This document shows positions 1,160 to 34,302 of a stretch of 34,488 bases of DNA, piece after piece (the first letter of the stretch is position 1; each line of letters starts with the position of its first letter). The DNA is from Perkinsus chesapeaki. Taxonomy: Eukaryota > Perkinsozoa > Perkinsida > Perkinsidae. The position numbers were made by a program, and so were the translations under genes. Location: NCBI GenBank assembly GCA_013115145.1, contig JAAPAO010000380.1:1-34488 (forward strand). Direction: 5' to 3'. Below the pieces are notes generated by a model, which ran no database searches, was not told the origin of the DNA, and saw only the letters and a program-made list of their open reading frames with translations.

Positions 1160-1969
1160 ATTACAGAAGGCCCCGACGAGCATCAAGATGCTGCATCAGG
1201 GCCGCGAAGAGTCGATTGAAGGCCTTGCGGCGCTTCAAATCGACGACCATTTTATAAAAGTGATAGGGGACACCACCCTTAACGCGCTTCCTGGCATGCT
1301 CTAAGAGCGGGCAGGAACGCAGGAGGTGCCTTAGGTACCCTATCGGGGCTCCGCATCACACTCCGGAGAGTCGATTACCCCACAACTGTGAAGATGAGCT
1401 GGGGTTGGAGCCCTACCGAACACTACAGCACTACCTGCTGGGGTAACTTCCCCACGACTCCACAGCCTCGCATGCGAGGCACAGTAGAAGAAGTCGTTGC
1501 AGGCAGTGCCAAGACCAGCCCGTTTCTCTGACCACCACTTGCGCAGTGACAGAAGCCCGGCTTCGGCTTGATACCGCCGAAGGGTCCTCACACTGATTTC
1601 CGTCTCCGAGGAGACTTCCGTCATGAAGGCACCCTTGGCTGCCAGTTCATCAGCTCGGTCGTTGGCAGGCATGCCGCTGTGACCAGGTACCCAATGAAAG
1701 GTGACCTTGTCCGGGAGTCCAGCCAAGAGCAGAGTAATCTGCCTGGCTTTATCCCTTCGACGGCTATTACAGCCAGGAAAACGAGGTTGCGCTCCAGAGG
1801 GCAAAAGATGTGCTGAGAGGAAATGAGTTCGCTGTCTCAACAAGGGGCCCGATGAGCTCTCGCGTGAAGCTCTAGATAGAGATCTGTGAGAGCCAAGGAC
1901 TGCCGGCTTTTCCGGTGACGAGACAAGCATTGGAAAGTTTCCAATGGAAACAGCAGCCGCCGTCCTCAA
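1160..1969 (-). pseudogene. LINE (non-LTR retrotransposon) RNase H and C-terminal remnant
   Basis: On the minus strand the frame carries VTFHWVPGHSGMPANDRADE followed by LAAKGA, the conserved C-terminal part of the RNase H domain of non-LTR retrotransposons (HWVPGHSG, then N-x-x-AD). The product continues for about 100 residues to GVIDSPECDAEPR. The reading then shifts frame and goes on as GYLRHLLRSCPLLEHARKR and DLKRRKAFNRLFAALMQHL, which resembles the Cys/His tail region of LINE ORF2 (CP...EHAR). The 5' part upstream of the RNase H is scrambled by further shifts, and no reverse transcriptase is present, so this is a 5'-truncated dead copy. It is opposite in orientation to its YR/gag-like neighbours and ends in the 23-bp hairpin repeat. 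Confidence 0.8.
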
Positions 1970-2042
1970 GAGCGCCGGTTACCGAAGCGCTCACTGCTAC
2001 TAAGATGCTGCCTGTTCAGCTAATAGTGTAAGAGGGTTTGTT

Positions 2043-2763
2043 TTGTCTAAAGTGGATCGAGAAGCCCTACGTCGGATCAAGCGAGCTCTCAAGAGAGGTC
2101 TCGGCCCACCGAGGCGAGCCAAGCCGGTCTCCCCGGGTGATTTACTGGCGATATACAGAGCATCCAAGCGACCACAGGAGAAGATGAGAGCCAATGCCTA
2201 TATACTTGCTGGCACCAAGTTGGTGTCTGGTTCCTACTTGGAAAAGAAGTTTGCGATGTGGCAACTGTTGATGTGACCATTGACAACAGTGGCGACAGAT
2301 GCGGACGAGCATTAATACTGGTCAGCGAGAGTAAGGTTGATATTCAGGATGTCGGACAAGAGAGGGAGCACGGCTGCTTTTGTTCGAGGTATGCCGGTCA
2401 GCTGGGGACGGATTTGTGTCCTGTCAGAGCGGCAAAAAAGACCTCCTAGCCTACAGACGGGAGCAGGGAGCTCAGGATAGAGATCCCCTGGTCGGGGACC
2501 TTTTCGGTACAGAGGCGGACAAGGCTGGTCTGAGAGAGGTTCTCCGCTGCGACTTGGTGAAGGCTGGTGTTCCGGAATCTCAAGCCTACTCGATGCATAG
2601 CCTCAGACGCGGCGGTTGCCAAATCCTGACTCGTGCTGGCCTGGACCTATCCCAGATCCGAGCCTTCGGAAGATGGTCGAAGACCTCACAGTGTGTGGAC
2701 ATCTACATCGAGGACGCCCTAATTTCTAATAGTACCGCATATGCGGAAGGGGGTATATCATAT
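2043..2763 (+). pseudogene. Tyrosine recombinase (YR) of a DIRS- or Crypton-like element, frameshifted
   Basis: Three reading frames on the plus strand join into one recombinase-like protein. 2043-2276 is a basic N-terminal stretch (DREALRRIKRALKRG, SPGDLLAIYRASKRP). 2258-2449 carries GRALILVSESKVD and LGTDLCPVRAAKK, the region before the catalytic box in eukaryotic YRs. 2380-2763 carries YSMHSLRRGGCQILTRAGL and AFGRWSKTSQCVDIYIED. HSLRRGG is the H-x-x-R motif, GRW the third conserved block, and the Y in VDIYIED the likely nucleophile. At least two frame changes (near 2270 and 2440) make it a pseudogene. Its 3' end runs directly into the 15-bp repeat array of the foldback structure. DIRS/Ngaro versus Crypton origin cannot be decided without a reverse transcriptase. 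Confidence 0.75.
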
Positions 2764-3020
2764 CTCGTACACCGAAACTCGTACACTTTCACCTCGTTCA
2801 CCACCCGTACACTGAATATCCGTACACCCCTCGGATCCGTACATCGTCAATTCGTAGTACGAATTTCGTACACCCCAGACTCATACACATGAAACCCGTA
2901 CACACAAAGACCGTACACATAACAATCGTACACATAAAATTCGTACACCAAAAACCCGTATACCGAAAACCCGTACATCGTCAATTCGTACACAACGAGA
3001 ACTCGTACACTTCGCAGTCA
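2764..3020 (+). repeat. 15-bp tandem array 1, forward
   Basis: About 16 degenerate units of CGTACAC plus 8 variable bases, with a 15-bp period (for example CGTACACATAACAAT, CGTACACATAAAATT, CGTACACCAAAAACC). Confidence 0.85.
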
Positions 3021-3061
3021 TGCAACCTTCATCTTGAGTTTCCTAGCTTGTACAGATTCTA

Positions 3062-3144
3062 AGGTTTCGCGGCTGTTATGGTGGCGGTGTTAGAATGTGG
3101 TGTAGCTTCACGAAAGGTCGTGAGTTCAACCCTCAGGGAAACTA
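3062..3144 (+). pseudogene. tRNA-like sequence with long variable arm (degenerate)
   Basis: A T-arm/B-box-like segment GTGAGTTCAACCCTCAG lies at 3120-3136. Acceptor arms AGGTTTC (3062) and GGAAACT (3137) pair at 6 of 7 positions. A hairpin-like CACGAAAGGTCGTG before it would be a class II (Leu/Ser) variable arm. I could not fold a convincing anticodon stem, so this is called a relic. Confidence 0.35.
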
Positions 3145-3321
3145 AATTAAATCATTTAAGTCGAACATCGATTTCCGGTCCAACACGTTACGTAGTTTGA
3201 TCGGCATTGCCATGTCGAATTTCCATTCCGAAGTAGCATACCTGGAATACTATTTCATGTGCCGCGTTTGAGTGTTGCATGCTGGTAAACTCGGCAGATC
3301 GGCTGTGGTTCTTCTATATTG

Positions 3322-3396
3322 CAGATGTAGCGTAGAAGTTAGTGTCCAAGGCCGTCAACCGTGAGGTCGCGGGTACAATTCCCGCAGAGACCGTGG
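3322..3396 (+). pseudogene. tRNA-like sequence (degenerate)
   Basis: A perfect T-arm, GCGGG-TACAATT-CCCGC, is enclosed by GGTC...GACC. An A-box-like stretch TAGAAGTTAGTG lies about 30 nt upstream. No acceptor partner or anticodon stem is convincing. Confidence 0.35.
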
Positions 3397-3438
3397 TAAT
3401 TGGCTTCTCACCCGGCGGGTAGGAAGACTTCCGGCTGT

Positions 3439-3497
3439 GCGAAATTTTTCAAGGCAAGTCGCGGAGTGGCTCCGCGACCTGCCTTAAAAATTTTCGC
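3439..3497. repeat. Hairpin 1 (28-bp arms, 3-nt loop)
   Basis: Arms of 28 nt match at 25 positions around loop TGG. The inner part is GTCGCGGAG / CTCCGCGAC and the outer part starts GCGAAA and ends TTTCGC. It separates the forward and reverse 15-bp arrays of the left half. Outer-arm words (CGAAA, ATTTTT, AAGGCA) are shared with hairpin 2 at 4277-4334. Confidence 0.9.
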
Positions 3498-3511
3498 GAA
3501 GTATACGAGAT

Positions 3512-3770
3512 GACGGTGTACGGGTTAAAAGTGGGGGTGTGAACGAAATGAAAGAGTACGGGTTTTCGGTACGAGCTTAAAGTGTACTGGTATTATGTGT
3601 ATGAGTATTCGATGTACGAGTATTATGTGTATGAGTGTTCGATGTATGAGTATTTAATGTACGAGTTGAAAGTGTACGGCCCTTCGGTGTACGGGCTGTA
3701 AGTGTACGAGTATTCGAGACATGAGTCGAAGATGTACGAGTTCTCAGTGTACGAGACGTGAACACCCCGC
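3512..3770 (-). repeat. 15-bp tandem array 2, reverse
   Basis: Units of GTGTACGAG plus 6 variable bases with a 15-bp period (for example GTGTACGAGTATTCG). Read on the minus strand, 3577-3786 stays open and gives pentapeptide-like repeats such as NTHTSNTHTHNTRTSN. Confidence 0.85.
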
Positions 3771-8893: not shown

Positions 8894-9928
8894 ATGAAGT
8901 TTCTTAGGTTTGACCCCTTCTCATACATGTTGCTCCGCTGCCTCGTGCTAGGTTACATCACTGCCTTGAACATCGCTATACTAGGCAGAGGAGAGGGTAT
9001 CGCTGGTACAGCACGCGGCTCTCCTGTGAACGACCCTCTCTATCCGCGACAGAACTCATATCTGGAAGCAATTAATGTTCCGGGAGCCTGGAAACGCCTC
9101 GCCTCTACAAGAGTTGTCAGAAAGAGGGTCACGGTAGCCCTTATCGATACCGGAGTCAAGCCTGATCATCCTGACTTGGTTTCCAATCTTGTAGAGGGTT
9201 ATAATGTTCTAAGTGGTGGTCATGATACCCATGATCGAGAGGGGCATGGTACTGAAATGGCCGGGATACTTGGTGCTACTATCAACAATACCGAGGGTAT
9301 AGCGGGTGTTATGGACCTCGTTAACATTATGCCGATTTTCGAAGGCAATACAGAGTACCAGATTCTTTTGGATGCTGCTTTGGACTATGTTATTACCGCA
9401 AGGGAAGCGAGAGATATAAAGTTTATATTGATGGCTTGTTCAGATGATAAGATTTATGACTACTTCAAGGACAGGATCAAGCAAGCAGACCAAGCTGGGA
9501 TTCTTATGATCGTCACTGCCGGGAATATGGGCAAGAACATCACTACAGAGAAGAGGTACCCCTGTGCTCTCTCCGAACAACTCGATGGAGTTTTGTGCGT
9601 CGGTGCGACAGAACAGTCGAGAATGAAGTTGGCTTCTTTCTCCAACTTTGCCAGTTACGTGGACGTTGCTGCACCGGGCGTTAACATCATGACAACGGGA
9701 AATGATGTTAACTATAAAACGATGCCGGGCACGTCTCCAGCGTCCGCCATCGTTGCAGGTGTGGTCGCCATGCTCTACAGTCTCGCTCCAGATCTAACTC
9801 CTGGTGATGTGAAGAAGATCATCAAGGGCACTTCCAAGAAAGGCCTCAAAGATTCCACTGGGAAGGTTGTCCTTCCATTCGGACGAATCGACGCAGACAA
9901 AGCTTTGGCGAAACTGATACCAAGATAG
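8894..9928 (+). CDS. Subtilisin-like serine endopeptidase (family S8), secreted
   Basis: Intronless frame of 344 residues. The N-terminus is hydrophobic (MLLRCLVLGYITALNIAI) and fits a signal peptide; the ATG at 8927 (residue 12), just downstream of a TTTCTTAG acceptor-like site, is an equally good start. Catalytic elements are in order: Asp85 in VALIDTGVKPDHPDL, His118 in EGHGTEMAGILGA, the oxyanion-hole Asn211 in TAGN, and Ser281 in GTSPASAIVAGVVA. The usual Ser motif is GTSMATPHVAG, so this one keeps the nucleophile but departs in the following residues. The chain starts peptidase-like at about residue 55 (YLEAINVPGAWK), so a long propeptide is absent. N-glycosylation sequons NNT (131) and NIT (215) fit secretion. 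No neighbour suggests a pathway. A palindrome CACCTCA-A-TGAGGTG follows the stop. Confidence 0.93.
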   Translation: MKFLRFDPFSYMLLRCLVLGYITALNIAILGRGEGIAGTARGSPVNDPLYPRQNSYLEAINVPGAWKRLASTRVVRKRVTVALIDTGVKPDHPDLVSNLVEGYNVLSGGHDTHDREGHGTEMAGILGATINNTEGIAGVMDLVNIMPIFEGNTEYQILLDAALDYVITAREARDIKFILMACSDDKIYDYFKDRIKQADQAGILMIVTAGNMGKNITTEKRYPCALSEQLDGVLCVGATEQSRMKLASFSNFASYVDVAAPGVNIMTTGNDVNYKTMPGTSPASAIVAGVVAMLYSLAPDLTPGDVKKIIKGTSKKGLKDSTGKVVLPFGRIDADKALAKLIPR

Positions 9929-10927: not shown

Positions 10928-11064
10928 ATCTTCTGAGGTTGAATTTTCGAAATATCTTCGAGGTCGAAGTGAGGGCGTATCTTTAAGGTTGAAATGAGGA
11001 CGTATCTTCGAAGTTGAAATACGGCCGTATCTTTGAGGTCGGCTGTGAACCCAGTAGTATCTTT
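10928..11064 (+). repeat. 25-bp tandem repeat upstream of the reticulon-like gene
   Basis: Units of the form ATCTTCGAGGTYGAARTGAG plus a few bases start at 10954, 10979, 11004 and 11029 (period exactly 25), with degenerate units at 10928 and 11059. The array ends about 95 bp before the ATG at 11156, so it lies in the promoter or 5' leader. Confidence 0.85.
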
Positions 11065-13000: not shown

Positions 13001-14049
13001 ATGGCTTCTCACTTCAGTGCCATTCCGTCGAACGAAAACAACATCGACGACATGAAAACTCAGCCACCTGTTCACCTCCTCTCCTCCGAGCACTTCTACT
13101 ACAAGTCGGGGCTGCTGGAGACCCTTGCAAGCCTTTACGGCTTGCTCCCGTTGAATACGGTCATGCCTTCACCAGAGGCATCGGGCTTTTCCCGTGGACT
13201 TGAAGCGCGCATGTGGGATAGGAATCGTCTCTACAAAACCAAGGTAACTAACGTGCTTTTGCGTTTTAACCATATTATTGCTATCCACTATTATTGTCAT
13301 TTATTATTGCTATCCACTATTATTGTCATTTATTATTGTTATCCACTTANNNNNNNNNNNNNNNNNNNNNNNNNNNNNNNNNNNNNNNNNNNNNNNNNNN
13401 NNNNNNNNNNNNNNNNNNNNNNNNNNNNNNNNNNNNNNNNNNNNNNNNNNNNNNNNNNNNNNNNNNNNNNNNNNNNNNNNNNNNNNNNNNNNNNNNNNNN
13501 NNNNNNNNNNNNNNNNNNNNNNNNNNNNNNNNNNNNNNNNNNNNNNNNNNNNNNNNNNNNNNNNNNNNNNNNNNNNNNNNNNNNNNNNNNNNNNNNNNTC
13601 ATTTATTATTGTTATCCACTATTATTGTCATTTATTATTGTTATCCACTATTATTGTCATTTATTATTGTTATCCACTATTATTGTCATTTATTATTGTT
13701 CGTTATCATTGTTCTTTAGGTATGTCGCTACTTCCTTCGCGGTAAATGCAAGTTTGGTGAAAATTGTTCGTACGCGCATCGGACCACTGAACTCCAGGCA
13801 CGACCAGACTTCTATAAAACGAAGATGTGCAATAAGCCGAAATGCACGAACAAGGCCTGTCCATATGCCCACTCTATCTACGAGCTACGTGACCCTCCGG
13901 ATTCGGTTGATTATATTTTCTACCCAGAAGATTTGCAGCCCCATTGTAATGATGTTAACTACCCAGATGTTTTTAGTCGAACGATGACTAAGGAGCTGCA
14001 AAATATCGCTCGTTTCGAGCACCAACAACTTGGCCAATATTTTGCTTAA
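13001..14049 (+). CDS. CCCH-type zinc-finger protein, paralog 1
   Basis: Two exons, 13001-13243 and 13720-14049, give 190 residues; the intron donor is AAG|GTAACT and the acceptor TTCTTTAG|GT, phase 0. Exon 2 carries two tandem CCCH fingers: C83-x7-C91-x5-C97-x3-H101 (CRYFLRGKCKFGENCSYAH) and C118-x4-C123-x4-C128-x3-H132 (CNKPKCTNKACPYAH), joined by TTELQARPDFYKTKM. Tandem CCCH fingers bind single-stranded RNA and typically control mRNA stability or translation; that role is inferred from the family. The tail is acidic and unremarkable. The 476-nt intron is filled with a 29-bp minisatellite and contains the assembly gap. A second gene at 16154 shares the fingers, the linker and the intron position. 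Confidence 0.88.
13267..13705. repeat. 29-bp minisatellite in the intron of CCCH paralog 1, with assembly gap
   Basis: Units of TTATTGTCATTTATTATTG plus YTATCCACTA repeat every 29 bp on both sides of 249 N (13350-13598). Two to three units are visible on each side. The true array length is unknown because the gap is inside it. The period is not a multiple of three, and frames reading through it are artefacts. Confidence 0.92.
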
Positions 14050-16153: not shown

Positions 16154-16768
16154 ATGAGTCTACGCCTATTTCTTTGGAAGGCTTTATCATTTGAAATGTT
16201 CTCCACCAGAAACACCTACAGCGCCCAACCCCACGCGTGGGGTTTCTTTCCACGGCCGCTCCCGCACCAGGTTCCCATGGCTCGGCTGCCGAAGGCCCCA
16301 GCGCCATACTATTCGAACACAGATCTTCCGGTATTTCAGCTACAACCACTGGTCCAGCAAGGAGGCGCTGAGCGAAATTCGTGGGATAAGGAACGTCTCC
16401 ATAAGACTAAGGTGAGAGTTGCTCTATTGTGGTTTCATCACTAGCAGCTCATCCTATTTCAGATGTGTACCTACTTCCTCCGTGGTAAATGTAAGTTCGG
16501 CAAGGAGTGTTCGTACGCTCACGGGAGCACTGAACTCCAGGCCAGACCCAACTTCTATAAGACCAAAATGTGCAATAAGCCCAAATGCAACAACTGGGCT
16601 TGCCCATATGCCCATTCTATCTACGAGCTGCGGGATCCTCCACCTTCCACTAATACTATTATCAAACCCGATAATCTGGGTCGTCGCTATGCTAACAAAT
16701 GTCCACTTGTCCATGTCCCATCAACTACTACCACTGGCGGGCTACCATTCATCGGCTCAAGCGTCTAA
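16154..16768 (+). CDS. CCCH-type zinc-finger protein, paralog 2
   Basis: Exon 1 ends at 16411 (AAG|GTGAGA), the intron is 51 nt (16412-16462, acceptor TATTTCAG), and exon 2 is 16463-16768. From ATG 16154 the product is 187 residues; ATG 16196 (residue 15, MFSTRNTYSAQPH) is an equally plausible start giving 173. The fingers are CTYFLRGKCKFGKECSYAH and CNKPKCNNWACPYAH, with linker STELQARPNFYKTKM; all eight zinc ligands are intact. The residues before the intron (WDKERLHKTK) match paralog 1 (WDRNRLYKTK), so the pair arose by tandem duplication after the intron was in place. N- and C-termini have diverged. The likely role is RNA binding, by family. Confidence 0.87.
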
Positions 16769-21247: not shown

Positions 21248-24200
21248 CTACACGCACTTGTAGTGATCCTCATCGCCTGAGGCAAACGTTCGACAAATGG
21301 AATATACAAACTTCAACTCACCTGCATCGTAAACCAACCCGTCATCGCTGAACTCGCCCAGCAATTTACTAAAAAAGTGACCAATACTAATTATATCTTT
21401 CAGCCCAATAATGAATTTTTCACCGAATTGGCATCCAATATGTAAGAACCGACAATTAATTTCCTCCCTAGCCAAATGTAAGTCGGCATGCGATGATTGC
21501 ATACCCCTGCCTGGCTCTCGCATGGCACTTACCGGATCTCTGCTGTACCCATAACCCCCTGGAACTTCGCTGTCATGTCAGCTACCTGAAAATCGAGCAA
21601 TTGGTGTCAGACTGCTCACATGAAGATAAGAGATCGAATTCATCCCTCTGAGAACATCTGCCGTTACTCTTTGAGTTCCCACCTCAGTCACCAGAACGGT
21701 TGAATCCTCGGCGAGAATCTACCTCTCAACCGTTGGCAAACAAATGTATGTGTCCCATTTTGTGCACCCAATATTGACAAAAATCACAATCTGACATCGC
21801 TCTCCAGAGTTGGGACAATTCTCAAAATTTGGGGAGTTAACCTCCTCCGCGAGTCGCATTGCTCACCGAGTATCCGAAGTCTGTCGTGTCCGAGCCCGCT
21901 TTGATAAACTCGAGCAGCTTGTCACGCCTCTCAGTCTCCGTGTTACCCACTGATGCTTCGTTTTCATTAGCAGGGGACGCCATCGATGAGGGCGGATTGC
22001 TACGAACTCAAAACAATAGAGAATCTTTTCCCACTGTCAAAAGCAGGCTTGGAGATGGCCGCTACGATACGCTGAATATTGGACGCAAAAGGGAGATTGC
22101 CAGAGTGTGACACCGCGGGGGAGCACCTCGCTCGACAATTCGATATTCCAGCAAGTCTACAAAAGATTACTCATCCCCACTCCGACAAAATACGGGCGCG
22201 TTTTATAATATTCCGCTCCTCTCAAGCCAGGCCGTGATTATACGACCGATTCTCGCGATTCAACGCCAATATGAAACGAGCCTGGAACAAGTAAACTTTC
22301 CGAAAATCGGAATCAGTAATAGAAGATGTAGTTTTCTTGACATTCCCCTCCTACGTGCTAGCAGTCTCCATGGTGGGTTGAGAAATCCCGCCGAAAGACA
22401 GTCTTTTCCCATCCGCTGAACTAGGGGCCACATCGGCGCTGTTCATAATATAAGCATGGGCAATGGCTGCAATATGGCCTGAAAGTAACCTATGTTGTAT
22501 CTTGCACGCTTCAACCTAAGATATCTATCTACATGGGATCTCATTGAGGTTCTCTACAGGCAGCACTCTCTGCGCCGATAAGTAAGGATTGCTTCCTCCT
22601 CGAATTGCTCCGATCACTCTCACATAGCTCTGACCGTGCACGGCGAATCTGAAAAGATACCACTCAACAACTGCAGCGATTTTCCCACTGTCGTACACCT
22701 ACCAATAAACATTCAAAACAGCGTGATTCGGGAATTCCGAGCATCCGTAATTTTACTCATAATAGTCGTATAATCACTTCGCACCATCAAAACATTCCCG
22801 TGTTAGTAGGTGACACGCAGGTACATAGGCTACGATACTTCGCGGAATTCCTGGCCGATCCATCAAGGTGTCCCAAAGATACTCCGAAGCTTGGTCGTAC
22901 AAACCCAAGATTCTTACTTCCCATTTTTCAATATCTCATCCGCTTTATTGCGTCCCTCAGTATCCGATTCCTCTGACAGAAATAATCGAGAAAGGGCGGA
23001 GCGACGCACAAACTCACCGAGATACATTTTACATCTGAGACTGCCGGTGAAGTCATCTAAAGTCCACTGAATCGCCAAACCGTCGTGCTCGACCTCTCGG
23101 GCGTTTCCTGAAGAATTTTGGGTTCAAATAATACGTCATAACTTTCGGCACAATCTTGAAACAATATTCTCAAAATCAAACTTTTCGACCTGCACGAAGC
23201 TGCCGGAGAAAATCCGGGAAAACAGCTGTGTAACTAAGACTATCCTGTCTAGGATTTACTCTCCCACGAGAATTCAGTATTGTCTGAGACGACGTCTCCT
23301 CCGTTGATCACGAAAAAATTGATAATGAAAGCCCGGAAAGAGTTTCATTCTTGCAGTCTCTGCGAGAATAGAACTGAGCGAGCTTTAAGACTGATACATC
23401 TACATACTGAGGTGATATTTTTCTGATACTTTTTTTCCATAGGGATCACTGAATTAAGTCTATTTAAGATGATGATTAATAGTAGATTGAATGTGAAGAT
23501 ATAGTAGCATGCTTATACCGATATTGCTTGCTCTCAGCTTGCTTGTTGGTATTTCCACATATCTCACCACCTCCCCCCGACGGCGGTTGCGTTGACAGAA
23601 ACCCATCAAGCTCTAACTGTGACAACAAATGACAGATACTAATAATTTAATAATGCACAATATGTTTTCCGGTATTTTGGCCAGAAACTCAATAAAAATC
23701 ATCACGATTAAAGATGTCAATCTCACGTTCCCCAAATCACGCACTCGGAATTTCGGACACATATGGACCCACTGTTTAAACTAATTTCGACGATCCCCAA
23801 AATCTTACCGACGATTTCAACGGCCCTCGGTGCAGTTCCAAAGACTTCGATATCCTCTCCGCCTGAGAAAACTATTTTTCATCAAATCGATCACGAAACG
23901 GTTGATCGATTATTCTAGGGGAAATAAGTCCCGAGCCAAATATTTCAATGCCAATGAAAGTCAAAATAAACATCAGAAAAGTGTACAGAGAAAATCTTGT
24001 ATCTCCAAGGTTCCCTGGTTCGATAAATTTTCCGCCTTTACTTCGAATTCCACCGAAAGATTCCATAACCCATCAAACTGTTTAGAGGTGAGTAAAACGC
24101 GAGTAGTTCCCCACCATTAAGGTGGAGCGGTCGGCCTAGAGAATTCCCGCGCGCCAAGAAACTCACCGGAATGTTCCTTGATAGCATCAGTGAACACCTT

Positions 24201-24678
24201 TACATTGATTGGAATCAGTGGACGTCGGCGAGCTTTCCTGTCGCCTGAAAACTGGGGAATCTCGGAAATCCTTAAACGGCGAAGTTACCGGTCTCAGCGC
24301 CTCCTCCGAAGGACATCTAAGAAAAAGAGAAATATTGGTCACAAAAAAAGGATAATAGGGTAAAATGGGAATTATAACAACAATTGCGCTAACGTGGAAA
24401 AGTCATAAAATATCAGAAATAAATTATAGGAAATAAAAGACACCAAACACTAACCGGATAAAAATTCCGGAATTTTAGGAGAGAGAAAAACAGAGATTTC
24501 ATAGTTCTATATAAAAGAGGAGGAATTTTGCCAATTTTTGGCCACTAAATATTACCCTTCCGCCGCCCATCGACTGTCTCCCTCCAGATTGTGTACCGAA
24601 TCCCGGGGTACCACTCAGACCACCACTGGGAGTGTCGCTGCCGAAGCCACCAAAGCCGCCGAAACCTCCAAAGGACAT
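21248..24678 (-). CDS. RPA2: Replication protein A 32-kDa subunit (RPA2)
   Basis: Twelve exons: 24556-24678, 24289-24316, 24167-24244, 23809-23862, 23018-23107, 22918-22972, 22533-22648, 22355-22478, 21867-21999, 21533-21585, 21322-21368, 21248-21276. All phases agree; the product is 309 residues (human 270). The Gly/Phe/Ser-rich start (MSFGGFGGFGGFG) is the phosphorylatable N-terminus typical of RPA2. The OB fold follows: RRRPLIPINVKVFTDAI, EDIEVFGTAPRAVEIVGNAR, LAIQWTLDDFTGSLRCKMYL, SYVRVIGAIRGG, HIAAIAHAYIM. After a linker the C-terminal winged helix reads DKLLEFIKAGSDTTDFGYS, VADMTAKFQGVM, KLLGEFSDDGLVYDAGDEDH. RPA binds single-stranded DNA in replication and repair. Exon 2 begins with a second in-frame ATG (MSFGGGAET) echoing exon 1. 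One intron (22479-22532) has a near copy in the Mei2-type gene. Confidence 0.92.
22479..22532 (-). repeat. Intron repeat family A, copy 1 (RPA2 intron 7, 54 nt)
   Basis: The whole intron, starting GTAG and ending TTTCAG, contains TATCTTAG-G-TTGAAGCGTGCAAGAT-5 nt-ATAGGTTACT. The same three blocks in the same order form the intron at 33632-33670. Confidence 0.9.
24141..24166 (-). repeat. Intron motif B, RPA2 intron 3
   Basis: Directly at the donor: GTGAGTTTCTTGGCGCGCGG. Confidence 0.6.
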
Positions 24679-26253
24679 TATTAGGGAAAGCTATGAACTT
24701 ATAATATAAAAAGGTTCACTTCAGGTCAAAGAATACTGAAGCATTCATCACTAGAAGGATAAAATAGGAACATACACGACGACTTAAATGACATAAAAAG
24801 CCCAGGCCAACGCCCGGCAGTTTATCGGTTGAGCGTCAACACTGGCGACGTGGTCAATAGCCAATGAGAGTTTAAAGTTTATCAAGAATACAGATGCGCT
24901 CGAACGATTCTGAGGGCTTTGTGGCTGATCTATAATTGGAAAACAAAGGCGGAATTTGAAGATCCAAAAACACAACTCTAACGCATTCGATAGAAAATGA
25001 GTGTCTCAAAGAAGTGTGCTTCAAATCCTTTGTTCAGTTCAATAAGAGAATGGATAAGAAAGGCAGCATTTCCAAACCGACTGCTACCAGTGGAGCTGAT
25101 ATCGATGAACACACTTCACTCAACAATAAAGAGAAGGAATTATATCGCTGCGCAAGTTATATAATGTAAGTTATATCGGCCCTGCGCCCACAGAGCCATG
25201 ATAACAAGTAGGTAGGATGGCGAGTAGATATATACTCTCAATAGGATGGACTCAGATAGACAGCTTACCCCTCAGTTAATATGAGTTGTACATGAAGCCA
25301 TCAATATAAAGATACTCACCAAAATCTTCATAGTGCGCAAGCTAGAGGAAGTATCTTGCCCAGTTACTAAATAAGGGAAGATCGAAAAGTGTTTTATTCA
25401 TAGGAGCTATCACAAATTCCAAGTTAGTCCGCTAAAACGACTAAGTTACCCTCCCTCTTCATCGAAGAGTCTTTGGATGGACTTGTTCAGATTGATATGA
25501 TATGCTGCTCGGTAGTATATTGTAACTTATCAAGATACTCCTTGGAAAATAATTCTACAAATTATCCACAGCTACATGTTAGTAAATATCACTTTTCAAA
25601 ATTTTCCAAATTGGCATTCCGCAAAATGGTACATGTGGCTAAGGAATGAGCCTGTTATTACCAACTCATATATAGCAAATTATAATCAATACTTGAATAA
25701 CGCTGCCAAAGATGACAGATATCCAACTGGGATACGCTAACCTGGCCTGCCTAGTTGCTCCTAAACCGGGAGTCGTCTACCCTCACGGAAATGCGCTCCT
25801 CGGGGATCGAAATTGGTTCCCACTCCGAAGGAGATATATTAGAAATTTTCCAAAGGAATATTTTTCCTAGACCAAAAGGAAATGTCAAGCAAATTCCTTC
25901 TGAGCCAACCTGCTCCTGAATCCTGCTCAAAGAACACACAGGCGCTGACTAATTGCTGCGCCACAGTGCAGATAAAATCACATCCAGAGATAGGTGTGCC
26001 ACTTCTGATAGCGGTCTGTCATAATCACAACAGATTTATCATTTCCTACAATACCTTAGAAATTTCATAAGCTTCAATTGACAGCACTAACCCAACACTT
26101 GCACTTTTACAGTCATAAAACAGCTCAGAAAATTAAACTGATAGGAGAGCAATAGTCACTTGTACAGCCGAATCTATTTAACCGTAACGGTACAACCAGA
26201 TCGTTCCGATAAAAAACGATCTCTCTCTCTCGGCCTCTGTTCGCTCGCGCAAA
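24679..26253. other. Intergenic region between RPA2 and the USP-like gene
   Basis: A/T-rich, with frames of up to 63 codons only. A minus-strand ATG at about 25335 (MKILVSIFILMASC) looks like a signal peptide, but no continuation could be found. Confidence 0.45.
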
Positions 26254-27691
26254 TTACCACTCGGGCGCACGCGTGCAACTGTCACGAACGACAACAACAC
26301 TAGCACCGCGGACGGACCTGAGGAACGATGAGTTTCAAAAATAGAGGGAACAAAAAAAATTTGCGCCGCAATGAGCTCACCTGGCAAGCCACTGCCCCAT
26401 TCGACCGGTGTAATCGGGACTGGGTCCAACAACAACGTAGTTGGAAAGTGAGTCACGGACATACTGAACGAGCTCAACCTGACAAAAAATAGTCAGACTT
26501 TTTTTGCGAAAGATTCTCAAAGAAGCATTTTTCCTGGAAATCTTCGAAGCTCACCTTGACATTGTTGCTCGGAGGCCTGACCGTATACTCGGTACTGATG
26601 CCCTTAGTGTGGGCATCTTGATCGATGGCCTCCTTCACCGACTTCATTATACCTTCACTGGCATTCTCGGTGATATTTTTGAGCGACCTGACATAGTAGT
26701 AGATACTCAAAAATAATCGCCAAGCATAACGATAACCAAGGAAACCAGACAACCGACAGATGTGGAGAAGAATGAGGTAATAGAAAAGAAAGCTAATAAC
26801 AACAACAGGAAAACACCAATTCCAACGTTTAGCCATAAAAATCCTCAAAAGTTCATACCGATTTTTCATCAAAACGGTTGATGACAAACCACGTCGATAA
26901 TTCGAGCCACTAAATCGCAACCTATGTCGCTTTTTAAACATGCTAAGAAATTACAATTAATTAAACTATCAGATCTTATTAGGACTAAAACAGTTATAGA
27001 ATCAATGAATTTAGTAGATTTACGACTGCTTACTCAGCGGAAAACAACTGCTGTCCTTCGGCACTAATAGCACCGGGATCACTCATGCTTGATAGAAGTT
27101 GCTCAGGGAAGGGCCTGGGGATGTGAACGCACTCAACATTATCACCTGAATGAAGTAATATAAGATAGTCGCCATAATGCGATAACAGATATTTAGAGGC
27201 AGTGAGGGTTTTATAACGAATGAGAAAGATATAACGAAGTCCAAGTCAGTAATATAGAGAATGTGATGAACTTACCAGTGCAATGACCGAGAGACTTATC
27301 ACTGGAAACTAATCAGATATTAGTAATATTAAAGAATTATGTCATGCCAAATAAAATGCATCAGGCATGCCAAAACTACCACCACTAGCCCGCAAGAACA
27401 AGACTAACACAGGCACATAATCGATATATAACAATGAAAAAACAACGCGGTTACGTACTAGAATATACTTATACGAATTAAACCAATAAAATACAATGCA
27501 AACGACCACTAAGCGCACTACTAACCTGGATTAGCAAGGGAAACGGCCTTCTTAGCAGCCTCAATGCTGCCCTTCATATCAGAGCCACCAACAGCTACAA
27601 GGAACCTGCGGGGTGCTACTGAGGCAGCTGCGGCTGTGGCGAACGATCGGACAGCGTTGAAGGCAATCGGACGGAATAAAGACATCGACAT
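26254..27691 (-). CDS. Universal-stress-protein-like protein with mitochondrial-type leader
   Basis: Exons 27526-27691, (27276-27308), 27034-27145, 26555-26687, 26381-26478, 26254-26317, all in phase: 201 residues, or 190 if the 33-nt second exon is skipped. The start (MSMSLFRPIAFNAVRSFATA) is Arg/Ser/Ala-rich without acidic residues, as in mitochondrial leaders. RRFLVAVGGSDMKGSIEAAK and DNVECVHIPRPFP match strand 1, helix 1 and strand 2 of the UspA fold. KEAIDQDAHTKGISTEYTV, VELVQYVRDSLSNYVVVGPS and WLARSVRGASVVVVRD match the second half. The nucleotide-binding G-x2-G-x9-G-S motif of ATP-binding USPs is degenerate here (GPSPDYTGRMG). Skipping the small exon gives the more usual ANPGDNVECVHI spacing. 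The role (stress response) is by family only. Confidence 0.78.
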
Positions 27692-28394
27692 TTTATAGTA
27701 ATGAATAATTGAATGCTTTTGAGAAGGTCACAAAATTGACCTAGCTGGTATCTTAAGCTGCGTAGCTACAGTAACAGACTGTCGCATCCATGTGTATACT
27801 AGCTTGAGGCAACGCAAAAATGGTATTCGTGACACAAAAAACAGGCGGAGCGAAGCAGATCATTTCTTGCTGCGCCCATAAACTCTTAAACGGTCAGCAA
27901 AGCTCATTAAAAGTAGGCAATGATTATATCCTTCAATCTTCGAGAATCTCGAATCGAGATGCAATTATGAATCATAAACAGGATTCACGTGGTTAAGGAG
28001 AAATAAAAAGTAAATGGAGGGCTATCCAACCAAGTCGTCCACTTCGGCAGCAGTCATTATAGCCTAATGGTAAGTATTCATGGATAGAAAGCGAAAGGTC
28101 CCGGGTTGAAATCCTGGAGCTGGATTCTAATTCTTATCCTTCAATGCAGCAACCAGGAAAATGAAAGTATCATATCAAAGACGCTTAGCGTGTTTAGTTG
28201 CAGTCTAAAGTATCTTTATATTCAAGACTTGAATTTTAAGTCATGAAGAGAGGCGAATACAAATTAATCCATCGCTCTGACCGCAGCAGATCACTGCATT
28301 CTATTGAGGTATTAATGCTTCCGGTAATTAATAGCAGACATCAAAGAGCATTACTCACACTATAGAAACTCAACCCCTTTCGATTCCAACAAAT
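27692..28394. other. Intergenic region between the USP-like gene and RIB43A
   Basis: Holds only the tRNA-like relic at 28050 and a word GGCGGAGCGAAGCAGA (27844-27859) that recurs elsewhere in the window. No frame worth calling. Confidence 0.45.
28050..28128 (+). pseudogene. tRNA-like sequence (degenerate)
   Basis: A-box-like TTATAGCCTAATGGTAAGT and T-arm CCGGG-TTGAAAT-CCTGG (one wobble) are 40 nt apart. The 3' strand AGCTGGA has no matching 5' acceptor, and the anticodon arm is unclear. Probably a tRNA pseudogene. Confidence 0.4.
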
Positions 28395-30756
28395 CTAATG
28401 ACATGCGGACTTGGCAAACTGGGCAAAGAATGCCTCATCGATTGCCGGCGAATACTAAACATGAAAAAGATAACAGTTTCCGAAAACGAAGACTCACGAT
28501 CTCTTCGCTCCGCTTTTTTCCATTTCTCTGTGACTCTGCCAATTTCCTATTTTCCGCGACCAGTTCCTCGGCGGCTCTACGACGTTTAAGTTGCTCTTCG
28601 TCGTAGATCTGAAAAAGCGTATCTGACCTTCAAGCGCGCATTCAACTCACCCTGACAGCCTCTAATCTTCGAGCTTCGGCCTCTTGTGCTTCACGGGAAG
28701 CTTGTTCGTTCTCGGCCTGAATCCTTATCCTCTTCTCTTCGACCTGAAACAAATAATACAAATGTAATAAGGAAGTGGAGGCATGAAAATAATATATAAA
28801 TGCAATGAGATGGCCCCTACCTGCATCGCCTGTTCATCCACCACAGTCTGTTTGTTCTCCATAGAAATGCCTTTGAAATCATAACTAGTGCCGATGTCTC
28901 CATTAAGCAGTTTGCTAAATGCCACCAACTCTGCCTTCCACGAACCAGTTCAACTTGCCTTTCCTTCAAGTGGAAATCAACATCGGTTTTTTCTCTCTTT
29001 TTTTCGATTTCTCGTTCCTTTCTCTCTTTCAGTTCTCGTTCTCGTCCGAGCTCGCTGCTCACCATAATTTCGTGGCGCGCGAAATATCCTCCTACCCGTT
29101 CTGACTATCCAAGCGTTTTCTCTCGTTGCGTCGGTCATTTTCTTGGGACACGTCAAGTTCCAATCTCGTTTCGAAATCCAACTCCGCCAACTCCGCGTAA
29201 GCTCGTTCGATCGCCGCATTTCCTGCGCGCCACTTAATTCCCCGAACCCTGCTTCTTCTCTACTTTGCATGATTAACTTCTTTTCCGCGTTCTGGTCGGT
29301 GAGACCCCGCTGAAACGGAAAAGCACATCCTATGGAAATTTTCTTAGATTTTCCAGGTCGTATTTTTTATGTCAAAAACGCGCCAACTTTCCGCCGACGG
29401 TCTTCCGATTTTCGCGTCGATTTCGGGTAAAAGTGTAATTTCACACGAAAGTTTTGGCATAAGAAAAAACGACAAAATTTCCGCTCTTCATATTGGGACC
29501 CGAAACAGCTTAACTCCTTGGCCGGAGCTCCAGTCATTCCCGAGACGCATCTTGCACGCCCTGATTTTTTCCGGTATTTTTTTCGATTTTTTTCGGAATA
29601 TTCCTCATCGTGATTTAAGCGAGTTCTCACCACAAGCTCATTTTGCTTAGCTCTCTTATCCTCAACAAACTCTCCAGCGAACACCTAAACGACAATCACG
29701 ATGAAAAACCGCGCGCCACGAAATTCACCTGTGCGGAGCTTGGTCCCAAGTGACACGTATCGATTGACAGGTCCCTAAGGAGATGCACATCGAGCCAAAA
29801 GTACGAGTGCGTCTGGTAGGAGATTTCGGACTGGAAAAGTGGACTTTTTCCGTCAGGAAATTTCACTAAATTTTCAGTTGAACTTTTTGTGAATGGCAAA
29901 TCCTGAGGCAGGATATTCAAACACCGCGAGTCGGGTTTTTGGGTTTCGGGTTTTCCTTACCGTTTTGGGTCGCTCAAGATGAACTCTCGTCGAGCTTCCT
30001 TATGAAGATGGGCGAGAGAGAATTGCCGCGCATCTCTCTCGATATCGCGCAGGCTCTGTCGGCGCTCATTTTCAATTCTGACATAAAAAAAGTATATTTC
30101 TACAACAAATGCATTCCTCACTGTTCAGCGACCCTGTCAAACTCCTCAAGAGCTCGGCGGTCGTTCTCGGCGGTTTCCATCTCTGTTCTACACACTTGTT
30201 CTTTTTCGACGATCTGACGTTCCCACTCGTCGACCTGCAAACCGCTGAATTTCGTTCGTACAGACAGCAGAGAAATTTCACTAGATTTTTCTGGAAATTT
30301 TCATGAAATTTTACCAGAAAATAATCCACTTAATTCCTCAAGAATATTTTCATATATTATTCCAAAAGACTCTGTGTAACAAATGTAAGTCTCGCCATTA
30401 AGACGCGAATCGCCTGCCAAACTCTCACGTTTGCCCCAATCTGTCTAATCCGAGGGTCCAAAAGCCTCTCAGATCTTTCCGCACGCTCGTTCCGTTTGCG
30501 CTGGAGCTTGATTGCCAGATCGATCTGACAAAAAAACAGAAAAGAATCCCCTGACTATATCCGCGCTTGAGTTCAGTGATAAATAGCAAACGCTTCACGA
30601 GGGACTAATTCTCTAACGAACGATCCGCGCTAGAGGCTCATCAGCGCCCACGTGAGTTCCGCCAACATTGAACTCACACAAAGAGGAGAGGAGCGAACTC
30701 ACCTGACCACCATCAGCAATTTCACGAAGGTCGGGATCGACGATAGCGGTGCTCAT
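28395..30756 (-). CDS. RIB43A: RIB43A-family flagellar doublet-microtubule protein
   Basis: Thirteen exons: 30703-30756, 30429-30524, 30122-30234, 29961-30077, 29729-29774, 29631-29684, 29264-29309, 29096-29222, 28982-29054, 28821-28934, 28651-28743, 28498-28608, 28395-28454. All phases close, giving 367 residues, the normal family length. Family blocks appear in order: LQRKRNERAERSERLLDPRI with RQIGAN; VDEWERQIVEKEQ; HKEARREFILSDPKR; CHLGPSSAQ; AYAELAELDFETRLELD; a Glu/Lys coiled coil; FSKLLNGDIGTSYDF; and the C-terminus YSPAIDEAFFAQFAK. RIB43A lies in the protofilament ribbon inside doublet microtubules of cilia and flagella, so the organism has a flagellated stage. Two introns use GTTGAT/GTAGAG donors; three short ones carry the GTGGCGCG motif. 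The ATG at 30756 opens a short coding exon. Confidence 0.92.
29055..29095 (+). repeat. Intron motif B, inverted copy in RIB43A intron 8 (41 nt)
   Basis: On the plus strand AATTTCGTGGCGCGCGAAAT (29066-29085), opposite to the gene. It occupies half of the intron. Confidence 0.65.
29223..29246 (-). repeat. Intron motif B, RIB43A intron 7 (41 nt)
   Basis: GGGGAATTAAGTGGCGCGCA at the acceptor end. The 12-mer GGAATTAAGTGG recurs inside RIB43A intron 2 at 30326-30337. Confidence 0.6.
29705..29728 (-). repeat. Intron motif B, RIB43A intron 5 (44 nt)
   Basis: GTGAATTTCGTGGCGCGCGG directly at the donor. Confidence 0.65.
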
Positions 30757-30816
30757 GGTGAACGGGAATAAATAGGCTTCAAGAAGCAACCTCTCCAAAT
30801 CGCCTACTAATCCAGA

Positions 30817-30898
30817 GACATCGTGTCCGAGTGGTTAAGGAGTTGGACTTGAAATCCAATGGGCTCCGCCCGCGCAGGTTCGAATCCTGCCGATGTCG
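30817..30898 (+). tRNA. tRNA-Ser(UGA): tRNA-Ser(UGA)
   Basis: Complete 82-nt cloverleaf without intron. Acceptor arms GACATCG/CGATGTC pair perfectly with discriminator G. The A-box is TGTCCGAGTGGTTAAGG. The anticodon stem TTGGA/TCCAA encloses CTTGAAA, anticodon TGA. The long variable arm (GGGC...GCCC type) is characteristic of tRNA-Ser, and the T-arm GCAGG-TTCGAAT-CCTGC is perfect. It lies on the plus strand, 60 bp outside the RIB43A start, and is the only clearly functional tRNA in the window. Confidence 0.96.
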
Positions 30899-31933
30899 TT
30901 CTAAATGTTCCCACCACTGCTTCCACAACACAACTCTTCAGTGCCAATAAGCCTAGTAACGTCTTGTACGTTATACGCAACTTAACCAGCTTGACGGATT
31001 TCTATTGCACTAAGCACAGAGGGTCGCTCCACATTCGGGCGGTCCACTCCAGCAGTGCTACAATACAGTAATAATTACAGTCAAAGACAGCGACCATGAC
31101 AAACAGGACGCAGATGCCTTTCGGAGTCACCAATCACATTAGGCGGTCTCCCGGGGCATTTCAGACAGCAAGTCAAATTATATAAAATCGTAGCACTCTT
31201 GACTACAATACCTGGCCGAAGTCATTCCGCCCACACAGAAGCAGCAGCACTAGCTCACTCGAAACCTCGGCGCGTTGTCGCGACTTTCAACTTCGGTTTC
31301 AATGGTGACAGAGATCTTTGGCAGACTCTGCACCGACAAGTGGCATAGGCGAAGATGCCTAATAGCGACTCTCTCGGTAGAGCCTGAAACACCTTTCAAC
31401 ATCAATCAAATCATTTCCCAGATAAAAATTTCTGCTCTTCACTGTTAGTCGCAGCAGATTCTGTGCGGCTTCCTCGCATCGATATGCCGTCAGCCACAAA
31501 CACACACCCAGCACCTCTGGCAGAACAAGCGTGCTGGCTCGGCACGCCTGCACTAGACTTCACGTCAGATCGTCGTTTGCAATATTCCCCAGAAGACACT
31601 TACGTGAGCAAGGGTATGCGACCACGAGTCTGCTTCGCTCCGCTCAATATGGTGACACGAATTACCATTTTCGTATCTGCCCCTTCCCAAGGGACTATGT
31701 GGCAGCATGATTAAGTGAAACTATATACTAACAGCCCCCAACTGAATTAAGGAAATGCAAGATGCTGCAAGATTAGCAAGATAACTGGTCTCAGCTGCCC
31801 AGAATTGAATGTATGTGCACCACCACGTTCGGCCCATCAGTCTTGTAGAGACCAAAAAAGCGACCTCAACAAAGAAGTTAAAACGCGCTTTGTCGCGCTA
31901 TAGAATGGTACACGCAGTACCAGTGCCTGACTC
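30899..31933. other. Intergenic region; possible unrecognised minus-strand exons
   Basis: No gene supported with confidence. On the minus strand, 31660-31360 contains an ATG frame MVIRVTILSGAKQTRGRIP before a GTAAGT donor, and later frames such as LLRLTVKSRNFYLGNDLIDV that look partly protein-like. I could not join them into one product or name a family. The word TGCTTCGCTCCGCTCAA (31631-31647) recurs at 10721. Confidence 0.35.
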
Positions 31934-34302
31934 TCATTGTTGTGCCGCTGAGGTGGCCTCAGGCTGATGCTGCTGCTGCCCGCGACGAGCCGCTCGTGAT
32001 CGGCTGCCTCGCAGCTTGATGGGTTGAGGGGTGGCGTCTGGACTGGGAAATGGTATAGTCTGACCGAGCTCATTTGGCTTGGTGGGATCGCAACCAATGA
32101 TGATGGGCCGATACCTGAAAGAAATAATAAATAACGCACGCGAGGATTGAACCCACGGCCATGAGCATCAGAGCCTACGCTACTAACTACTAGACTAAAT
32201 TGCCACGTCCATAATTACTCTTCAACTGGGAGAGCACAAACAGGTGAGTTCTTGTAGTGCTGGACGTTCGCTTCCAATCCTTGAACTCTAGCAGTCGATA
32301 CATCACAAACCTGAAGAGCAGCGGAAATGCCACGAAGTAGAATATAACCAAGGATCTCACCTTTGTGGAGTTAAATCCTGTCAAATGCAAGCCTTGGAAC
32401 TTTTCTCGAAACCTTTGAGCGGTAAGCTCATCCGTAAAATTGATGAAAGCGTATCTTAGCAAGCTCGGATGATCCATGGTTCGATCCTCGGGTCCGCCAT
32501 TTTAACCTACCCGATATTGCAGCGATTTTTAAAATCGATCGGAAGATACAAAAAATCATAACCGTGTTTGAAGTCCTCGTCCAACGCACCTCGTAACATC
32601 GACTAAGAAAACATAACACTCCGTCACGCGCCACAAAATTCCCTGCTACCTGCGAGTACTTGTTAGGAATGTTTCGCAGCATTAGCGTCGTTATTGGTCC
32701 AGTGGGGTGAGGGGACGGTTCTCGTTCCTAAGGCCGTGGGTTCAAATCCACCTCAAGCTATTTTGTAATATCTCACCTTCGCAGCTGGCTTCTTGCCTTC
32801 TGTATTCTCCCCTAAAAAGACAAACAAATTTTTTTTCAGATCAGCTCCTGAGTTTCAACGTGTAAACCCTAATTTAGTAGCACTCTTGCTATCCTCATAA
32901 ATTCCTTCCTATTGCCCGAGGCTGCCCTAGAAAAGCGCCCCATTCGAGGATCGAACTCACGACCTTCCCCACACGAAACTCACCCTCGGCATCTTTGCTC
33001 TTCTTCCGCGATCTTCTCTTTTTTGGTTTCTTGGTTGACTCCAGAAACTCCATGCCATCTTGGGACTGCCTGTAACACAAGATGAGCTCGAAAGATACCT
33101 CAACGAGCGAGCTGCCCAACCAATGATCTTCAAATAGTCTTCGAGAAAAGAAATACACAATAATATCAAATAAATATTTTAGTAAACATAAAAAACACAT
33201 ATCCGGTTCAGAATTCAAAATACCAACTTTTGTGTGCCGCTTGTCCCCCTTGCACACCACCGTTGGCAAATTTGTCCAACTTGTTCCACTAACAAAATGT
33301 TCCTTTTCCATGCACATGACCTACCGTCATTCGCAATGCTACCATTTGCGATCCATGGCAACTTAAAATACGGACTCTCGCCCACTATTCCCAACTTGCC
33401 TTCGTTGGCCAGATAATAAACAAGCGCATCACCTCTATATAACATTCCATCTTACAGCAGTAAGAAAATTCTAGCAGCTCTCAAAAAAACGTCACCGCGC
33501 CACAAAATTGCCCAGTAATACCGTCGCGCAGCCGATGCCTCAATTTCGGCCGAAAGGTCCGAGAGGACATGAGAATTGCCTATCGTGCTGGAGTGAACCG
33601 TAGCAGCATCAGTATGGGCATCTTGAGTAACCTATACAGAATCTTGCACGCTTCAAGCTAAGATACCTACCTCCTCAATACACCGATCCAACACACTGCT
33701 AGCTCCTATCACACCCGGCCCCGAACCGTTTAAAAACCCGCAAATAGTGCAAGTCCACATCCCCCTCTCATAAAGCTCGCAGCCATCATTCGGACTTCCG
33801 CAATTCCCACAACATTCAAATTCATGCTCCTCCTCAAGTGGCGATGATGATTGATGAAAGCATCGGTTTAAAAGGCTATTCACACTGTATTCGCTGTTCC
33901 GGTGAAGCTGGGCAGCTGACTTGCTTTGGGATAAAGATAGTCGAGAAAGGGAGAGAGCTCGAGTGAAGCCATCGGCATCGGGAGTTAACTGAAGGATGAA
34001 AAGTAATGTCACCACTTCCTCATTACGTTCATAAAAAGTAATGTCACCACTTCCTCATTACGTTTATAAAAAGTAATGTCACCACTTCCTCATTACGTTT
34101 ATAAAAAGTAATGTCACCACTTCCTCATTACGTTCATAAAAAGTAATGTCACCACTTCCCCATCACATTTATATCCGCCCATCCCTATTATTACCCCCAA
34201 TAGCTCCTTCTTTATATTCTTCAATTTCTCCCTTAACGGTAGTGCTTGCGCGAAGCTCCCTCCCCCCTGAATCGGCACCGACACCGCCTTCCGTTCCGAC
34301 AT
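31934..34302 (-). CDS. Mei2-type RNA-binding protein (C-terminal RRM_2) with N-terminal zinc ribbon
   Basis: Twelve exons: 34132-34302, 33671-33988, 33496-33631, 33325-33450, 33228-33288, 32984-33069, 32777-32811, 32650-32727, 32511-32602, 32361-32454, 32219-32310, 31934-32114; phases agree, giving about 489 residues. The RRM of Mei2-like proteins is complete and highly conserved: TTLMLRNIPNKYSQ, DFKHGYDFLYLPIDFKNRC, NIGYAFINFTDELTAQRFR, FNSTKVCDV, ARVQGLEANVQHYKNSPV, then YRPIIIG. Upstream are a basic stretch (KKPKKRRSRKKSK), an aromatic segment DGMLYRGDALVYYLANEGK with a BAH-like look, and a Cys4 ribbon (CGNCGSPNDG, WTCTICGFLN). Mei2 proteins bind RNA and control meiotic or developmental switches in fungi and plants; the function here is inferred. 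The first exon and its donor in the 35-bp repeat are uncertain. Confidence 0.85.
32118..32214 (-). pseudogene. tRNA-like sequence inside a Mei2-type gene intron
   Basis: The 104-nt intron holds an A-box-like TTTAGTCTAGTAGTTAGTAG and a T-arm GTGGG-TTCAATC-CTCGC, about 45 nt apart, on the gene strand. The expected acceptor partner is missing, so this is a relic rather than a working tRNA gene. Confidence 0.4.
32621..32640 (-). repeat. Intron motif B, Mei2-type gene intron (47 nt)
   Basis: AATTTTGTGGCGCGTGACGG, nine bases after the donor GTAGCAGGG. Confidence 0.65.
32684..32760 (+). pseudogene. tRNA-Pro-like sequence antisense to the Mei2-type gene
   Basis: On the plus strand, TTATTGGTCCAGTGGGGTGA (A-box-like) overlaps the exon encoding the start of the RRM, and GTGGG-TTCAAAT-CCACC (T-arm) lies in the adjacent 49-nt intron. 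Only AGC...GCT of the acceptor pairs well. Confidence 0.35.
33491..33510 (-). repeat. Intron motif B spanning an exon-intron border in the Mei2-type gene
   Basis: CAATTTTGTGGCGCGGTGAC. The frame of the next exon requires the donor at GTGACG, so most of the motif is coding (AILWR). Confidence 0.6.
33632..33670 (-). repeat. Intron repeat family A, copy 2 (Mei2-type gene, 39 nt)
   Basis: GTAG-GTATCTTAG-C-TTGAAGCGTGCAAGAT-TCTGT-ATAG, followed by GGTTACT, which here is the start of the next exon. 34 of 40 aligned positions match copy 1. Confidence 0.9.
34001..34175. repeat. Five tandem 35-bp units in the first intron of the Mei2-type gene
   Basis: AAGTAATGTCACCACTTCCT starts at 34001, 34036, 34071, 34106 and 34141 (period 35). 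The units are nearly identical; the last decays at about 34165. Each unit contains GTAATG...CATTAC, a 6-bp inverted repeat, and on the minus strand repeats the candidate splice donor AAC|GTAATG. Confidence 0.95.

Follow-up and report, generated by a model that had tools for sequence, protein, structure and literature searches.

A 34,488-nucleotide stretch of Perkinsus chesapeaki DNA (the window) contains two closely similar short sequences in unrelated genes, one encoding replication factor A protein 2 (RPA2), the other presumably a Mei2-type protein. The question raised by this locus is whether the two sequences belong to an introner family, as an earlier sequence-only reading had proposed. 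Both sequences were located on the minus strand at the positions first assigned to them (Table 1). Their likeness had been put at 34 of 40 positions; a recount of the common block by eye gave 35 of 41. The window holds exactly two copies of the shared 16-mer TTGAAGCGTGCAAGAT. When the window was shuffled, the same 16-mer at up to 3 mismatches produced a mean of 0.28 matches per window, and two or more matches in 3 of 100 shuffles.

Table 1. Positions of elements, related repeats and host genes in the window
Feature	Positions	Strand	Remarks
RPA2 intron	22479..22532	minus	54 nt, GTAGATAG...CTTTCAG; element sense; family profile E 1.6e-13
43-bp core within RPA2 intron	22482..22524	minus	position derived from 16-mer at 22499-22514
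RPA2 gene (replication factor A protein 2)	21251..24678	minus	tblastn pieces matching P0121
Proposed Mei2-type gene intron	33632..33670	minus	39 nt, putative boundaries; family profile E 7.7e-09; ORF on both sides
43-bp core in Mei2-type gene	33624..33666	minus	from 16-mer at 33641-33656; 8 bases past proposed acceptor
ORF with start of Mei2-type C-terminal RRM (TTLMLRNIPNKYS)	32428..32727	minus	ORF list; Mei2-type is the presumed family
Family H copy (GCGCACTATGAAGAATT)	25322..25338	minus	1 mismatch; candidate only as intron
Half-element module AAGATWC-N5-AGGTYRA	27736..27754	minus	
25-bp tandem array	10953..11041		unit like the element's TATCTT and AGGTCGA blocks; Tandem Repeats Finder

The copy in RPA2 is absent from the annotated protein. 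In tblastn, the NCBI entry "replication factor A protein 2 [Perkinsus chesapeaki]" (P0121) lacks exactly 18 codons (54 nt) at the element and reads NEIPC-HIAAIAHAYI over the junction. Read as a GT-AG intron, this gap corresponds to 22479-22532. The alignment with human RPA32 (2pi2) spans the same junction, and the element copy itself contains in-frame stop codons. The gene also has further introns of several hundred bases. Reading phase had been thought to fix the boundaries of both introns. For RPA2 the gap in P0121 bears this out, whereas the Mei2-type boundaries are open to other placements: judged by eye, other acceptors likewise keep the frame open for some 30 codons, and the proposed acceptor (TATAG/GTTACT) would make the conserved GGTTAC block exonic, whereas the equivalent block is intronic in five of five supported sense introns described below. 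No protein spanning 33632-33670, annotated or homologous, was retrieved, and Pfam gave no match for the ORF piece that we take to be Mei2-type.

Searches of the P. chesapeaki assembly (35.4 Mb, 884 contigs) exclude the possibility that the sequence is unique to these two sites. The 16-mer has 37 exact places genome-wide, which rise to 315 when as many as 2 mismatches are allowed, compared to 13 for the reversed pattern. A 28-mer at up to 3 mismatches gave 146 places against 0 for the reversed pattern, and a degenerate 26-mer at up to 3 mismatches gave 366 against 0. When a profile was trained on 81 copies and run on the 297-kb sample from which they came, it gave 109 matches at E 1e-3, and 0 in the reversed sample; since this sample was chosen for matches, it gives no copy density. 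From the column frequencies of the 81 selected copies, in which the 16-mer columns are biased by selection on the 16-mer, we delimited a 43-bp core, GTATCTTAGSTTGAAGCGTGCAAGATACAAAATAGGTCAACTT, that extends from -10 to +32 relative to the 16-mer. Copies selected by the 16-mer are on average 80% identical to the consensus and 70% identical pairwise, and the family passes gradually into diverged copies. At least two of the 81 (L005 and L027) look by eye like chance 16-mer matches from which the rest of the element is absent.

Among the sampled copies, the element is dispersed in unrelated flanks. One of the 12 most similar copy pairs is a tandem array, and the other 11 have a flank identity of 14-36%. 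A native 5.7-kb stretch of C196 has nine other genomic matches, each 33-59 bases long with 81-97% identity. By their place in the query, four of these are the 43-bp element (in C419, C313, C100 and C287), three are a separate family C, and the last two are other short repeats, one of them tRNA-like and one unassigned. Since the matches fall on several repeats, this one stretch shows several short dispersed repeats at once.

To what extent such copies behave as introns was addressed by joining the predicted exons around 18 copies and comparing the products with Pfam, PDB sequences or homologs. The copies were picked by eye from heuristic splice models, and the models used for joining required GT-AG. 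For 10 of the 18, an alignment with a conserved protein crosses the junction once the element is removed. The element is sense in five of these genes (RPA2, OLA1, prohibitin, an EF-hand protein and a mitochondrial carrier) and antisense in the other five (Sec62, an amino-acid permease, PP2A B'', a WD40 and a TPR protein), a split that, given this way of picking the copies, is not an unbiased estimate. Removal from the transcript is judged from the annotated protein for RPA2 and from homology junctions for the other nine. For OLA1 and prohibitin the junction is spanned by a PDB sequence; the Pfam match stops short of it in the former and begins right at it in the latter. For Sec62, eight homologs, none from Perkinsus, were found, and the seven of them that were aligned are ungapped through DFWIFPNL-DED-LGV-ESFQPLYS; the Pfam match also spans the junction. 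The PP2A B'' junction matches 4mew (E 4.5e-25), and the TPR copy belongs only weakly to the family (profile E 0.0018). For the remaining eight copies, either no family was matched, or the match stayed below threshold or broke off ahead of the junction: the protein match of COX11 (L041) ends before it, the L026 copy has a sub-threshold match only (E 0.054), and the copies in L011 (at 1488), L047, L052, L055 and L057 had no junction support. The gene with the L003 copy was considered as an FAD-dependent glycerol-3-phosphate dehydrogenase, and the comparisons gave no match.

Ten supported introns in ten unrelated genes therefore have the same core. They measure 46-81 nt, so that the 43-nt core makes up over half of each, and many other short predicted introns in the sample are similar in size or smaller (mostly 41-50 nt in OLA1 and reticulon, for example). 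These lengths suggest, short of proof, that the element created the intron rather than joined an older one. In the two longest supported introns (78 and 81 nt), the element may lie within an older intron. The proposal of an introner-like family is thus upheld by hundreds of copies and by element-free alignments in unrelated genes. The apparent splicing in both orientations, as well as the other short families described below, had been missed by the sequence-only reading.

GT and AG are found at or some bases outside the core at variable distances, and the intronic unit is therefore not the same over its whole length. Each of the ten supported introns is readable as GT-AG; non-canonical sites were not seen among them, with the models for nine requiring GT-AG. 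Sense copies have a branch-point-like AGGTYRAY near the acceptor, and antisense copies have CTNAG at the matching place. The heuristic splice models, which served only to choose candidates, covered 111 copies and leaned sense for 32 and antisense for 25 at a score difference of 4. We compared the signals between sets of copies called sense or antisense. At a score difference of 4, GTYR at +25 is present in 26/29 copies of the sense set and in 14/24 of the antisense set (p 0.011); for GT at -10 the figures are 18/29 and 6/24 (p 0.012). At a score difference of 2.5, GTYR changes to 29/37 and 19/33 (p 0.075) and GT gives p 0.030. CTNAG does not differ between the sets (18/29 sense and 13/24 antisense at a difference of 4), which argues against a simple orientation-specific branch point. 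As the orientation calls were partly built on splice signals, and six features were compared at two thresholds, the differences are weak support. Codon usage alone assigned an orientation to 15 of 105 copies (8 sense, 7 antisense), too few for a test of the splice signals.

The supported junctions revealed no target-site duplication of fixed length: direct repeats at the ten sites are 0, 0, 1, 1, 1, 2, 3, 3, 4 and 4 nt long, and consist of AGG or AGGT in three. Nor does the element have terminal inverted repeats; the only inverted repeat is internal and 7 nt long (GTATCTT/AAGATAC). A functional RNA hairpin formed by these arms was considered and rejected, as they pair no better than shuffled columns across the 81 copies. 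Likewise, the four introns tested for RNA structure fold no better than shuffles. A search for U1 snRNA gave no match, and since all 14 controls also gave none, the result is uninformative. In the window, Rfam at gathering thresholds reported only a tRNA.

Further short dispersed families were found by self-comparison of the sample. At up to 2 mismatches, family F (GGCGGAGCGAAGCGATTCA) has 254 genome-wide matches compared to 1 for the reversed pattern, family H 243 compared to 5, and family E (AAATCGATCACGTGATCGATTT), a perfect palindrome, 208 per strand, that is about 208 sites, compared to 0. The dyad AAGATWC-N5-AGGTYRA, which forms the 3' half of the 43-bp element, occurs 727 times exactly and once as the reversed pattern. 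Family D has 14 sample matches and 1 in the control. In Sec62, predicted introns 2, 3 and 4 contain F, H and the antisense element, respectively, and all three junctions lie within ungapped parts of the homolog alignment; of the four predicted introns in the stretch of this gene covered by homology, three thus each hold a different dispersed family. In the amino-acid permease, the intron that follows the element copy carries E, and the domain match extends across both junctions. With one supported intron apiece for E, F and H, P. chesapeaki may harbour more than one introner family; that number is too small to call E, F or H introner families with confidence. A peptide read across an F-family junction in L040 had no match. 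For family C no such claim is made: at least one of its 18 sample matches (L028, 495) lies by eye in permease coding sequence.

The same units also occur in tandem. Arrays with a period of 25-67 bp, built of the whole element or of its 3' half, lie at 4353-4668 in L032, 7905-8070 in L033 and 6374-6587 in L035, and L026 has arrays of the element or its 3' half at 1048-1154 and 2535-2714. Both C196 (L031-L034) and C83 (L035-L038) are far denser in copies than the other sampled stretches, with 37 profile matches per set at E up to 0.5. In a search of L034 that began after its first 2000 bases, an F copy at 2708-2754 (about 30708 in C196) is accompanied by an inverted copy some 20 bases away (AGCGGAGCGAAGC...GCTTCGCTCCGCT), an arrangement that resembles terminal inverted repeats.

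We consider it highly probable, on the strength of these comparisons, that both window sequences belong to an introner family, that is, to a set of short non-autonomous DNA elements which are inserted into exons either way and removed as GT-AG introns. Such an element would enter an exon in either orientation and would then be removed from the RNA. Each strand of the core would offer a branch-point-like block near its 3' end (AGGTYRAY or CTNAG), and GT and AG at or some bases outside the core would make either strand spliceable. Copies would be made from DNA, since reverse splicing into sense RNA does not account for antisense ones. Intron-sized GT-AG units in unrelated genes could also arise if introns were copied by reverse splicing into other RNAs and then reverse transcribed. 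As the only mechanism this is very improbable, given that 5 of the 10 supported copies are antisense to their gene. Even harder to credit is the idea that the elements are coding insertions which are translated or bypassed instead of spliced. Several reversed-orientation copies do read by eye as open frame, but the annotated RPA2 protein omits an element that contains in-frame stops, and for the ten conserved proteins an alignment over the junction requires removal of the element.

Two other explanations concern the origin of the shared sequence. The common blocks could be an intronic signal that was selected in many unrelated introns, rather than copied DNA. The dyad would suit such a splicing code, with its constant ends and variable 5-base spacer, and so would the better retention of GTYR at +25 in sense than in antisense copies (26/29 vs 14/24). 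A directional signal should not work both ways with the whole core conserved, however; other introns in the same genes lack the element, and the element also forms tandem arrays. We therefore regard selection for a signal as improbable. More weight is due to the possibility that units of minisatellite-like arrays were caught as filler when broken DNA in exons was repaired and proved spliceable by chance, with neither a transposase nor a dedicated mobile element. Free orientation, the lack of a consistent target-site duplication and the existence of arrays (25-26 bp for the element's 3' half, and 67 bp for the whole element in C196) all agree with this explanation. The selected copies nevertheless keep the same 43-bp boundaries instead of random array phases, and most of the sampled copies lie outside arrays, so that we judge repair filler to be unlikely. 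The introner reading can be extended in a way that we put forward as conjecture, possible but doubtful: many short introns of P. chesapeaki may derive from several largely orientation-independent introner families of about 20-45 bp (A with the dyad module, palindromic E, F and H) that share one trans-acting machinery, are amplified in tandem arrays and can supply most introns of a gene, with Sec62 as the example.

The window and the sample contain several other features. Fragments similar to tRNA T-arms and 3' ends are dispersed over 16 places in 12 sample loci (for example L008, 395-431 and 1774-1868), and by eye also near 32140, 32480, 32730 and 32945 in the window. One lies inside a predicted but unsupported intron of Sec62. 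Possibly these pieces represent a tRNA-derived introner or SINE family. A tRNA-Ser with anticodon TGA was found by ARAGORN at 30817-30898 and is also called a tRNA by Rfam. The minus strand at 1340-3635 has an RNase H match, and this region includes TCGTACAC repeats that are common to C196, together with an ORF at 2341-2892 that looks by eye like a tyrosine recombinase and for which Pfam gave no match; these features are possibly the remains of a retroelement. At the contig end (34407-34488) lies a tandem repeat of about 50 bp that is also found in L026, L033, L039 and L046. Two similar CCCH zinc-finger ORFs stand in tandem at 13720-14049 and 16445-16768. The subtilisin ORF at 8894-9928 belongs to a large expansion: of its 36 best matches, about 30 are P. 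chesapeaki relatives.

The bulk origin of introns is a long-standing question on which these Perkinsus units bear. A compact genome of a dinoflagellate relative, with very short repeats that form introns in both directions, would offer a route to the minimum sequence that makes an intron on either strand, and would allow introners to be compared among Perkinsus, Amoebophrya and dinoflagellates. On the practical side, Perkinsus gene models could be checked against these units. Among the open-access papers searched, introners and Perkinsus appear together only in PMC7789003, and the open-access papers that combine P. chesapeaki and introns are devoted to other topics according to their titles and abstract openings. 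The string "perkins" is absent from the main text of PMC9860276, whose supplement may list the genus. What these searches mark as new is the host lineage, together with splice sites that vary around a constant core, the unit's occurrence in tandem arrays and the mix of families.

Introners are known from about 5% of the species searched in a survey that describes 548 families with median lengths of 30-654 nt (Gozashti et al. 2022, PMC9860276). The notion that the small size of the Perkinsus introns would itself be notable does not survive this range. According to the same text, families occur with or without target-site duplications, and some have neither these nor terminal inverted repeats. 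Huff et al. (2016), as described in PMC10228655 and PMC7789003, treat the introners of Micromonas and Aureococcus, for which insertion in both orientations is reported. As far as these descriptions go, the Perkinsus family resembles the Micromonas, Aureococcus and PMC9860276 introners in consisting of similar short introns in many copies in unrelated genes, and departs from them in that its splice sites lie variably outside the core and its unit is also found in tandem arrays. Polarella and other dinoflagellates contain many introner families (Roy et al. 2023, as cited in PMC11453091). With these the likeness, which is one of description in a different lineage, lies in the presence of several families per genome. 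The introners of Amoebophrya A25 and A120 have inverted repeats of 8-20 nt, direct repeats of 3-5 nt that overlap the boundaries, and non-canonical splice sites, by the account in PMC7789003. In contrast to these, the supported Perkinsus introns are readable as GT-AG, their direct repeats measure 0-4 nt, and their 7-nt inverted repeat is internal and shows no covariation. What the two share, as far as that account describes it, is a set of repeated introns that spread in the genome of an early-diverging dinoflagellate relative.
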